Under the pieces are notes generated by a model, which was not told the origin of the DNA, made no database searches, and worked only from the letters and a program-made list of their open reading frames with translations. A stretch of 64,000 bases of DNA, from positions 1-64,000 of the forward strand of contig ONDF01000011.1 in NCBI GenBank assembly GCA_900316525.1, read 5' to 3'. Both the position numbers and the translations under genes were made by a program. The stretch is from an uncultured Bacteroidales bacterium (lineage in GTDB: Bacteria; Bacteroidota; Bacteroidia; Bacteroidales; UBA932). This document shows positions 58,174-64,000 of this stretch, piece after piece (the stretch's first letter is position 1; the number at the start of each line of letters is the position of its first letter).

Positions 58174-59799
58174 ATGAACAACGCAATCCTGAACTTCCCG
58201 GTACCGGCCAACGAGCCGGTGAAAGCTTATCTCGAAGGCTCTCCCGAGCGCATCGCCCTCGATGCCGAACTCGAGCGCCAGTGGAACACCGTCGTGGACA
58301 TCCCGATCATCATCGGCGGCAAGGAAATCCGCACCGGCAACACCGGCACGGTCGTCTGCCCGCACGATCACAAGCATGTCCTCGCGACCTTCCACAAGGT
58401 AGGTGAAAAGGAAGTGGAAATGGCCGTGGAGGCCGCGATGAAGGCCCATAAGGTCTGGTCCGAGACCCCTTGGACCACCCGCGCCGCCATCGTCCTCAAG
58501 ATGGCCGAGCTCCTGGCCACGAAGTACCGTCCCATCATGAACGCCGCGTGCATGCTGGGCCAGAGCAAGAACATCTACCAGGCCGAGATCGACAGCGCCT
58601 GCGAGACGATCGACTTCTTCCGCTACAACGTGCACTACGCGTCGAAGATCTATGCGATGCAGCCCAAGGACGGGTCCATGAACATCAACCACACCGAGTA
58701 CCGTCCGCTGGAAGGCTTCATCCTGGCGGTGACCCCGTTCAACTTCACCTCCATTGCCTCCAACCTGTGCATGACGCCGGTCCTGATGGGCAATGTCGCC
58801 CTCTGGAAGCCGTCCACCACCGCCACCCTCTCCAACTACTACCTGATGCAGCTGTACAAGGAAGCGGGCCTTCCGGACGGCGTCATCAACTTCCTCCCGG
58901 GCAGCGGCGCCCTCATCGGCAAGGTTGCGACCGCATCCAAGTGGTTCTCCGGCATCCATTTCACGGGCTCCACCAGCACGTTCAACAGCCTCTGGCGCCA
59001 GGCGGGCGAGAACCTCGGCAAGTACGTGAGCTACCCGCGCCTCGTCGGCGAGACCGGCGGCAAGGACTTCATCTTCGTGCACCCGAGCGCCGATGCGAAG
59101 GCCGTCGCCACCGCCGCTTTCTGCGGCGCCTATGAGTTCCAGGGCCAGAAGTGCTCCGCGGCCTCCCGCATGTACATCCCGAAGAGCCTGTGGCCGGAAG
59201 TCCTCGGCATCATGAAGCAGTACGCCTCCGAGGTGAAGATGGGCGACGTCCGCGACCACACGAACTACATCAACGCGGTCATCGACGAGAAGTCCTGGGA
59301 CAACATCGACAGCTACATCTCCTACGCCGAGAAATCCGCCGATGCCAAGATCGTGATGGGCGGCGGCCGCGACAAGAGCGTCGGCTACTTCGTGGAGCCG
59401 ACGGTCATCGAGACCACGGACCCGCATTTCAAGTCCATGGAAGAGGAAATCTTCGGACCGGTCCTCACCGTCTTCCCGTACGACGACGACAAGGTGGACG
59501 AGACCGTGAAGCTCTGCGACACTACCTCCCCGTACGGCCTCACCGGCGCCGTGTTCGGCAAGGACCGGCTCGCGGTGGAGAAGATTACGGACGCCCTCCG
59601 CTATGCGGCCGGCAACTTCTACATCAACGACAAGCCTACCGGCGCCGTGGTCGGCAACCAGCCGTTCGGCGGCGCCCGCGCCTCGGGTACCAACGACAAG
59701 GCCGGCGGCGAGTTCAACCTCATCCGCTGGATCATCCCCAGAGTCATCAAGGAAACCCTCGTTTCCCCGACCGACTACCGCTACACCTACATGAAGTAA
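58174..59799 (+). CDS. pruA: L-glutamate gamma-semialdehyde (P5C) dehydrogenase
   Basis: A 541-residue aldehyde dehydrogenase of the P5C dehydrogenase type. Catalytic Cys327 (GQKCSAASR), general base Glu293 (VGETGGKDF) and the NAD-binding GSTSTFN segment near 265 are all present. It has the long P5CDH N-terminal part (PVPANEPVKAYLEGSPER). It oxidises glutamate-gamma-semialdehyde, in equilibrium with 1-pyrroline-5-carboxylate, to glutamate with NAD. No PutA proline dehydrogenase domain is fused. In this operon its substrate could come from the hydroxyproline dehydratase at the end. Cytoplasmic. Confidence 0.9.
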   Translation: MNNAILNFPVPANEPVKAYLEGSPERIALDAELERQWNTVVDIPIIIGGKEIRTGNTGTVVCPHDHKHVLATFHKVGEKEVEMAVEAAMKAHKVWSETPWTTRAAIVLKMAELLATKYRPIMNAACMLGQSKNIYQAEIDSACETIDFFRYNVHYASKIYAMQPKDGSMNINHTEYRPLEGFILAVTPFNFTSIASNLCMTPVLMGNVALWKPSTTATLSNYYLMQLYKEAGLPDGVINFLPGSGALIGKVATASKWFSGIHFTGSTSTFNSLWRQAGENLGKYVSYPRLVGETGGKDFIFVHPSADAKAVATAAFCGAYEFQGQKCSAASRMYIPKSLWPEVLGIMKQYASEVKMGDVRDHTNYINAVIDEKSWDNIDSYISYAEKSADAKIVMGGGRDKSVGYFVEPTVIETTDPHFKSMEEEIFGPVLTVFPYDDDKVDETVKLCDTTSPYGLTGAVFGKDRLAVEKITDALRYAAGNFYINDKPTGAVVGNQPFGGARASGTNDKAGGEFNLIRWIIPRVIKETLVSPTDYRYTYMK

Positions 59800-59805
59800 A
59801 CAACT

Positions 59806-62114: not shown

Positions 62115-62116
62115 AC

Positions 62117-64000
62117 ATGACATTTACCATCAAACATCCCGAGAACGACGGGGGAATGAACCCGCGGATCAAGCGTCTCCGGGAGGAGAGCGTATCGACG
62201 CCCGCAACCTTGACCATCGAACGCGCCCTCATCGAGACGGCGTTCTACAAAGAGAACTATGGAAAATATTCGATTCCGGTGCTCCGCGCGAAGAACTTCT
62301 ACGAGATTTGCGCGAAGAAGACGCTGTACATCGGCCCGGACGAGCTGATCGTGGGCGAGCGCGGCCCCAAGCCGAAGGCGGTCCCGACGTTCCCGGAGCT
62401 TACCTGTCACAGCGTGGAGGACCTCCACGTGCTGGACACCCGTGAGCTGCAGACGTACCACATCAGCCAGGAGGACATCGACACGTATGAGCGCGAGGTG
62501 ATCCCTTACTGGAAGGGCAAGACGCAGCGCGAACGCATCTTCAGCCACGTGTCCAAGGAGTGGGAGGAAGCCTACCACGCCGGCGTGTTCACCGAGTTCA
62601 TGGAACAGCGCGCCGCGGGCCACACCGCGATGGACGGCCGGATGTACCGCGAAGGCCTGCTGGACATGAGGGCCCGGATCGAGAAGAACATCGCCGCCCT
62701 GGATTACATCAACGATCCCGAGGCGACCGACAAGGAGCAGGAACTCGACGCGATGCGCATTTCCTGCGACGCCGCGATCCTGCTCGCCGAGCGCCATGCC
62801 GCCCTCGCGGAGGAAATGGCCGCTTCCTGCACGGACCCGGTCCGTAAGGCGGAACTCGAGAAGATCGCCTCTGTGTGCCATTGGGTCCCTGCCCATGCCC
62901 CCCGCGACCTCTGGGAGGCTATCCAGATGTACTGGTTCGTCCATCTCGGGACCGTGACGGAGCTCAACGGATGGGATTCCATGAACCCCGGCCACATCGA
63001 CCAGCACCTCTATCCCTTCTACAAGAAGGGCGTGGAGGAAGGGACGCTGGATTACGACAAGGCGAAGGAACTCCTGTGCTGCCTGTGGATCAAGTTCAAT
63101 AACCAGCCCGCGCCGCCCAAGGTGGGGATCACCGCGCGCGAGTCCGGCACCTACAACGACTTCACGAACATCAACATCGGCGGTGTCGACAAGTACGGAA
63201 ACAGCGGCGTGAACGACCTCTCCTACATGATCCTCGAGATCCAGGAGGAGCTGCACGAACTGCAGCCGGGCCTGTCGATCCACATCGCGGAGAACACCCC
63301 CGACGAGTTCCTCGCCGCGGGCATCAAGGTCATCCGCCTGGGCCACGGCTATCCGTCCGTGTTCAACCCCGATACGTATGTGAAGGAGCTGGTCCGCCAG
63401 GGGAAATCGCTGGAGGACGCCCGCGAGGGCGGCTGCTCCGGCTGCATCGAGGTGGGTGCCTTCGGCAAGGAAGCCTATCTGCTGACGGGCTACCTGAACA
63501 CGCCGAAGATCCTGGAAATCACGCTGAACAACGGCGTGGACCCGGAAACCGGCAAGATGATCGGCCTCGAGACCGGCGACCCGCGCGGCTTCAAGACGTT
63601 CGAGGAACTGTACGACGCCTGGCACAGGCAGATGGAGTACTTCGTGAACCTGAAGCTCAGCGTGAACAACTACATCGAGCGGATGTTCTCCCTGTATGCC
63701 CCCGCCACCTTCCTGAGCCTGTACATCGAGGATTGCATCGACAAGGGCAAGGACTACTACAGCGGCGGCGCGCGGTACAACACGACTTACATCCAGTGCA
63801 CGGGCCTCGGCACCATCACGGACTGCTTCACCACCCTGAAGAAGCACGTGTTCGAGACCGGGCGCTACACGATGGACCAGCTGCTGGCCGCGGTGGCCGA
63901 TGACTGGAAGGGGCACGAGCCCATGCGCTTGTACATCCGCAACCACACGCCTTTCTTCGGCAACGATGACGCGTATGCCGACGACATCGCGGTCCGCGTG
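62117..64000 (+). CDS. hypD: trans-4-hydroxy-L-proline dehydratase (glycyl radical enzyme), 3' end outside window
   Basis: The first 628 residues of a glycyl radical enzyme; the C-terminal radical Gly domain lies beyond the window. Active-site residues match Clostridioides difficile HypD with a constant offset of 9: Asp287 (Asp278), Ser343 (Ser334), Phe349 (Phe340), Cys443 (Cys434) and Glu445 (Glu436), in LNGWDSM, ESGTYNDF and GCSGCIEVG. HypD uses a thiyl radical to dehydrate trans-4-hydroxyproline to 1-pyrroline-5-carboxylate without oxygen. An activating radical-SAM enzyme is needed and is probably just downstream. It starts 2 bases after the M24 peptidase stop. This points to an anaerobe. 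The alternatives, pyruvate formate-lyase or glycerol dehydratase, would not share these five residues. Confidence 0.88.
   Translation, partial: MTFTIKHPENDGGMNPRIKRLREESVSTPATLTIERALIETAFYKENYGKYSIPVLRAKNFYEICAKKTLYIGPDELIVGERGPKPKAVPTFPELTCHSVEDLHVLDTRELQTYHISQEDIDTYEREVIPYWKGKTQRERIFSHVSKEWEEAYHAGVFTEFMEQRAAGHTAMDGRMYREGLLDMRARIEKNIAALDYINDPEATDKEQELDAMRISCDAAILLAERHAALAEEMAASCTDPVRKAELEKIASVCHWVPAHAPRDLWEAIQMYWFVHLGTVTELNGWDSMNPGHIDQHLYPFYKKGVEEGTLDYDKAKELLCCLWIKFNNQPAPPKVGITARESGTYNDFTNINIGGVDKYGNSGVNDLSYMILEIQEELHELQPGLSIHIAENTPDEFLAAGIKVIRLGHGYPSVFNPDTYVKELVRQGKSLEDAREGGCSGCIEVGAFGKEAYLLTGYLNTPKILEITLNNGVDPETGKMIGLETGDPRGFKTFEELYDAWHRQMEYFVNLKLSVNNYIERMFSLYAPATFLSLYIEDCIDKGKDYYSGGARYNTTYIQCTGLGTITDCFTTLKKHVFETGRYTMDQLLAAVADDWKGHEPMRLYIRNHTPFFGNDDAYADDIAVRV

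Follow-up and report, generated by a model that had tools for sequence, protein, structure and literature searches.

A pruA-hypD gene run in an uncultured Bacteroidales bacterium points to a probable oxidative conversion of peptide-bound hydroxyproline to glutamate

What becomes of 1-pyrroline-5-carboxylate (P5C), the product of the glycyl radical enzyme HypD, when the P5C-using gene beside hypD encodes a dehydrogenase? In Clostridia, the worked-out fate of the HypD product is reduction to proline. The question is raised by a stretch of DNA from an uncultured gut/rumen Bacteroidales bacterium (GCA_900316525.1, an assembly of 3.07 Mb that is 98.2% complete), here called the window, which consists of the first 64,000 bases of contig ONDF01000011.1 (C35; 84,965 bases). 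It carries pruA (58174..59799, + strand), coding for an NAD-type L-glutamate gamma-semialdehyde (P5C) dehydrogenase of 541 amino acids, and, further downstream, hypD (62117..64516 of the contig, + strand, crossing the window edge at 64000). Enzymes of the PruA class convert P5C and NAD+ to glutamate. HypD converts hydroxyproline (Hyp) to P5C and is reported to rank among the glycyl radical enzymes of highest abundance in the human gut (PMC7077986). As argued below, we consider it probable that a single operon takes peptide-bound Hyp to glutamate through HypD and PruA, a route that is oxidative rather than reductive.

The identity of both enzymes supports this reading. HypD scored 1138.3 bits against the curated equivalog NF043068 (cut-off 1100), and other glycyl radical enzyme families stayed below their own cut-offs on this protein. 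It aligned with the structure of Clostridioides difficile HypD over 783 residues without gaps, and the 14 active-site residues that we drew from the corresponding structure paper (PMC7077986) were all identical. They include the catalytic Cys434, Glu436 of the CXE motif and the radical Gly765 (encoded past 64000), as well as His160, Asp278, Ser334, Asp339, Phe340, Tyr450 and Thr645. PruA scored 757.6 bits against TIGR01236 (cut-off 613.6), and the solved structures closest to it were P5C dehydrogenases. Its catalytic residues, Cys327 (in FQGQKCSAASR) and Glu293 (in PRLVGETGGKD), are intact, as a preliminary description of this DNA had reported. The two genes belong to a run with the order S9 peptidase, pruA, metallo-lipoprotein, M24B Xaa-Pro peptidase, hypD, activase and S9 peptidase, all on the + strand. 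The first S9 peptidase gene lies 65 bp from pruA, and the spacings from pruA onward are 6, 50, 2, -1 and 12 bases. With this tight, same-strand arrangement and both equivalogs passed, the earlier claim that pruA and hypD share one operon-like run was borne out.

The same description had called for a search past position 64000 for a HypD activase and for proC. An activase-type gene was indeed located there, directly 3' of hypD and overlapping it by 1 nt (C35 64516-65424, + strand). Its product combines radical SAM and ferredoxin domains, passes the glycyl-radical-enzyme activase family TIGR02494 (307.3 vs 174.35 bits) and is assigned only at that level. No proC was detected on C35, including the sequence past 64000, and it is the activase gene that follows hypD. 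The closest relatives of this HypD come from Bacteroidales assemblies of rumen, omasum and abomasum (96-98% identity). At loci L004-L008, HypD is 96-98% identical, yet the activase is only 66-69% identical, and its gene lies on the other strand, in most cases at a distance of 1.5-4 kb. The activase of L012 is 96% identical to that of the window's contig, the sole such case in this comparison. These differences suggest that the activase gene has been swapped or has changed its place.

Among the aldehyde dehydrogenases of the genome, PruA was the sole P5C dehydrogenase-type gene found. We considered another aldehyde dehydrogenase (contig C42) as a second P5C dehydrogenase and rejected it; this protein is closest to the benzaldehyde dehydrogenase MdlD, yet falls under the MdlD cut-off. 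No proline dehydrogenase domain was detected anywhere in this 98.2%-complete genome by a search that was positive in 8 of 14 control genomes, one of them a Bacteroides. A proline dehydrogenase elsewhere feeding PruA was therefore ruled out, and with it the possibility, raised in the preliminary description, that PruA serves only proline from a distant PutA.

The pairing also recurs outside the window. We compared the neighbourhoods of the 80 nearest HypD loci, some of them shortened by contig ends, and gene clustering placed an activase in 64 of them; 41 carry pepP, 29 the lipoprotein gene and 28 pruA. In 26 of these 28 loci pruA lies upstream of hypD and in two downstream. Loci L026 and L064 have the order hypD-activase-pruA-lipoprotein, so that the partners remain together despite rearrangement. 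On the HypD tree, the presence of pruA switches 9 times, with well-supported branches accounting for at least 7 of these changes, versus 18.5 in shuffles, indicating that pruA is clustered by descent, yet has been gained or lost repeatedly. Of the 28 genomes with the pair, 21 lack proline dehydrogenase; in the remaining seven it resides in open frames of 1067-1168 amino acids, the size of a bifunctional PutA, and judging by that size these would bring their own P5C dehydrogenase domain. Ornithine aminotransferase was present in 10 of the 28, with no match over the cut-off in 18. Neither enzyme was found in 12 genomes, where HypD is the sole catabolic P5C source visible to the searches run; as the completeness of these related assemblies is not given, single absences are weak and the overall pattern is weightier. 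We also surveyed 393 Bacteroidales genomes sampled across families, with association tests that, here and below, ignore kinship. HypD was found in 135 (fragments included), PruA in 229 and proline dehydrogenase in 228, and the three tend to occur together. HypD and PruA co-occurred with an odds ratio of 5.9, which reached 7.0 among genomes lacking proline dehydrogenase (Fisher p 9e-5).

A candidate start of the transcription unit lies 38 bp before the ATG of pruA, where the sequence TATTTTTG (58136..58143, + strand) corresponds to the Bacteroidota-type -7 promoter box, TAnnTTTG. In 13 of 27 related loci, pruA is preceded by this box at a distance of 21-60 bp, vs 0.7% of random 40-base stretches, a count that is inflated by close relatives among the 27, though the surrounding sequence differs. 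Between the pruA box and hypD it recurs only once, spanning the pepP start codon. A search for E. coli-type sigma-70 promoters found none, and the Bacteroidota box was adopted instead.

We propose the following sequence of events. A promoter just upstream of pruA would probably drive a single transcript. The two S9 peptidases, the metallo-lipoprotein, which resembles Pro-Pro endopeptidases (PPEPs), and the cytoplasmic Xaa-Pro peptidase would cleave Pro/Hyp-rich peptides, the presumed source of Hyp, and free the imino acid. The adjacent activase would make HypD radical-active, HypD would dehydrate Hyp to P5C with no net redox change, and PruA would oxidise P5C, as glutamate semialdehyde, to glutamate with formation of NADH. 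We infer that most of the P5C formed in the cell would end up as glutamate.

Several results weigh against this proposal and lend substance to its alternatives. The activase had the HypD-activase family NF043069 as its best-scoring family, though at 323.2 bits it stayed under the cut-off of 425. We also checked 22 related genomes in which pruA does not belong to the cluster. Half of them (11) carry pruA at another place, and the other 11 have no TIGR01236-type PruA, so that HypD works there without a PruA exit. In addition, the only P5CR_dimer match of the window's genome lies on contig C55 beside genes reading as proB and proA, so that P5C can be reduced to proline. The preliminary description had seen no ProC in the operon, and none is encoded on C35. 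Because proB and proA adjoin it, this P5C reductase is best regarded as biosynthetic, and because it is encoded, part of the P5C could still go to proline. In one form of such a split, ProC would supply proline for protein synthesis, and PruA would clear an excess of toxic P5C, with glutamate as a mere by-product. Both enzymes are encoded and P5C accumulation has been reported as toxic (PMC12899673); for such protection alone, one would expect neither several Xaa-Pro peptidases in the operon nor a pairing that was repeatedly lost and gained. We regard this alternative as possible but rather unlikely.

The genome also encodes an ornithine aminotransferase (contig C52; 669.6 bits vs a cut-off of 378.4), a second possible source of P5C for PruA, and predicted proteins nearby were read by eye as carbamate kinase and ornithine carbamoyltransferase. 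An exclusive tie of PruA to HypD in this genome was consequently rejected; with this aminotransferase encoded, PruA need not serve HypD alone. Moreover, 38 of the 393 survey genomes carry PruA while lacking both HypD and proline dehydrogenase, which implies a further P5C source there, likely ornithine aminotransferase. Two members of the window genome's family (G126 and G224) are among these 38. One could thus suppose that PruA chiefly serves ornithine and arginine breakdown, HypD-derived P5C going to proline through the distant ProC. We consider this unlikely, as pruA is located in the hypD run, away from the aminotransferase, and as 18 of the 28 genomes with clustered pruA have no aminotransferase match over the cut-off. 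The oxidising route from Hyp to glutamate and NADH that the preliminary description put forward thus keeps its support as an inference, whereas its account overlooked both proC and ornithine aminotransferase.

Lastly, linkage of the two genes is narrow. Neighbouring hypD and pruA genes, which the preliminary description proposed to look for in other genomes, were found repeatedly around the nearest HypD relatives and only once in the broad survey: among 112 survey genomes with both genes, many of them drafts with short contigs, the two lie within 20 kb of each other in one, the window's own. A general Bacteroidales hypD-pruA linkage was rejected on this count, making the operon a lineage feature and not the general state of the order; it is limited to the window's lineage and the rumen Prevotella-like HypD group. 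That pruA, pepP and the lipoprotein gene are general proline-peptide genes standing beside hypD by accident in one lineage would agree with this count and with the many Prevotella loci that have pepP-hypD without pruA, and is nevertheless very improbable, given that several branches of the HypD tree carry the pairing, which occurs in two gene orders and with tight spacing, and that the lipoprotein and HypD are found together in 12 of 15 survey genomes (Fisher p 3e-4).

Turning to the other genes of the run, the lipoprotein encoded between pruA and pepP (59806..60669, + strand) matched no family at cut-offs and gave no sequence match to solved structures. It was characterized by an alignment of relatives, an AF2 model and Foldseek. 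His170, Glu171 and His174 of its HEXXH motif (170-174), Tyr209 and Glu216 are invariant across 26 aligned rows. They give the residue set of PPEPs, which are zinc metallopeptidases, namely the HEXXH zinc motif, a third-ligand Glu and a catalytic Tyr, as assigned by spacing and not by superposition. Pfam PF07737 matched weakly, in 16 of the 26 rows (best 1.8e-4). The AF2 model is of medium confidence (mean pLDDT 73.8); with it, PPEPs ranked first in Foldseek, the best match being PPEP-2 (E 4.9e-4), and comparison with Pro-Pro endopeptidases gave a VIA Z of 11.4 over 158 residues (root-mean-square deviation 4.2 Å). The related M34-type catalytic domain scored nearly as high on the model, the fold being common to other zincins, and no weight can be put on other folds being missing from the structure lists. 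In this model the predicted fold comes closest to that of PPEP-1, -2 and -3, and a proline/hydroxyproline-directed peptidase would be a reasonable guess for this protein. The family occurs in at least 29 loci (e.g., L015:7726-8571 and L060:7776-8621) and keeps its place next to pepP and hypD also at loci that lack pruA.

The pepP-like gene (60720..62114, + strand) codes for an M24B Xaa-Pro peptidase of the aminopeptidase P/prolidase family (464 amino acids; Pfam PF00557, PF05195); the solved chains closest to it were human prolidase and, next, aminopeptidase P. Upstream of pruA lies the gene for an S9 prolyl-oligopeptidase-family peptidase with a DPP IV N-terminal and a peptidase S9 domain (56045..58108, + strand; PF00930, PF00326), which is probably secreted or periplasmic. 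Its conservation at this place, judged by synteny, is limited to the nearest relatives (L004, L008). The second S9 peptidase was identified in the downstream sequence (C35 65437-67428, + strand, past the window). The region 49767-56028, upstream of the first S9 peptidase, contains a SusC/SusD-like pair and, after it, a lipoprotein bearing a HEIGH metallopeptidase-like motif (54574-56028), and it is possible that it forms an uptake system for the same peptides as the operon. An interspersed repeat, GTCATTCTGAGCGAAGCGAAAGAATC, was observed at 60693-60718 (+) and 27911-27936 (-) of the window, with zero copies expected by chance. One copy immediately precedes the start codon of pepP, and a stretch resembling it seems to be present around C35:67450.

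With these neighbours, a broader and more tentative proposal can be made, which we hold to be somewhat unlikely as a whole. The operon could be self-contained for imino-acid-rich protein, with the PPEP-like lipoprotein cutting at Pro/Hyp sites, the Xaa-Pro peptidases freeing Hyp, and HypD and PruA yielding glutamate and NADH. Collagen fragments or, in the rumen, the hydroxyproline-rich wall proteins of plants would then be the substrates, and HypD would be PruA's only catabolic P5C source where proline dehydrogenase and ornithine aminotransferase are both absent. The gene set indicates the PPEP-like peptidase, so far unstudied, as the likely supplier. If oxidation to glutamate is indeed the fate of P5C here, the chemistry would make Hyp a source of nitrogen, carbon and NADH for these Bacteroidales rather than an electron sink, and one nutrient would have opposite redox values for competing gut bacteria.

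Several known systems resemble parts of this locus. The lipoprotein is similar to PPEP-1, -2 and -3 in its tentatively predicted fold (Z 11.4), in its HEXXH motif and in a Tyr followed seven residues later by a Glu, the spacing of Tyr209/Glu216 being equal to that of Tyr190/Glu197 in PPEP-3 (PMC12828418). Unlike the PPEPs, it is a Bacteroidales lipoprotein in a hydroxyproline operon and only 14-20% identical to them over the aligned parts; CD1597 is known as a PPEP-like protein in which no Pro-Pro activity could be detected (PMC11460543). The ornithine aminotransferase-PruA route likewise supplies P5C to PruA and its aminotransferase is encoded in the window's genome, but it is unlinked to the operon and absent from 18 of the 28 cluster-bearing genomes. 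Catabolism by proline dehydrogenase and PruA, or by PutA, shares the second step, in which a TIGR01236 enzyme takes P5C/glutamate semialdehyde to glutamate. The difference lies in the first step, as the window's genome has no proline dehydrogenase and HypD is the P5C source beside pruA.

The clostridial HypD-ProC cluster, e.g., that of C. difficile, has its HypD active-site residues in common with the locus studied here. Clostridial clusters carry a P5C reductase, whereas the clustered P5C user here is the NAD-type dehydrogenase PruA, with peptidases within the run and no proC nearby on C35. A reductive counterpart exists within the same HypD group, at L072, where a proC over its curated cut-off (9014-9790, -) stands divergently beside hypD (10001-12397, +) in one of the 11 genomes without a TIGR01236-type PruA. 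In the literature searched, outside which remain the founding papers (Levin 2017; Huang 2018), possibly mentioning a glutamate route, we found no description of hypD with pruA. The idea of fates other than proline is not new, since an eLife paper already names P5C as usable as a carbon and nitrogen source. What this locus adds is a commitment, at the level of the genes, to the oxidative fate of P5C.

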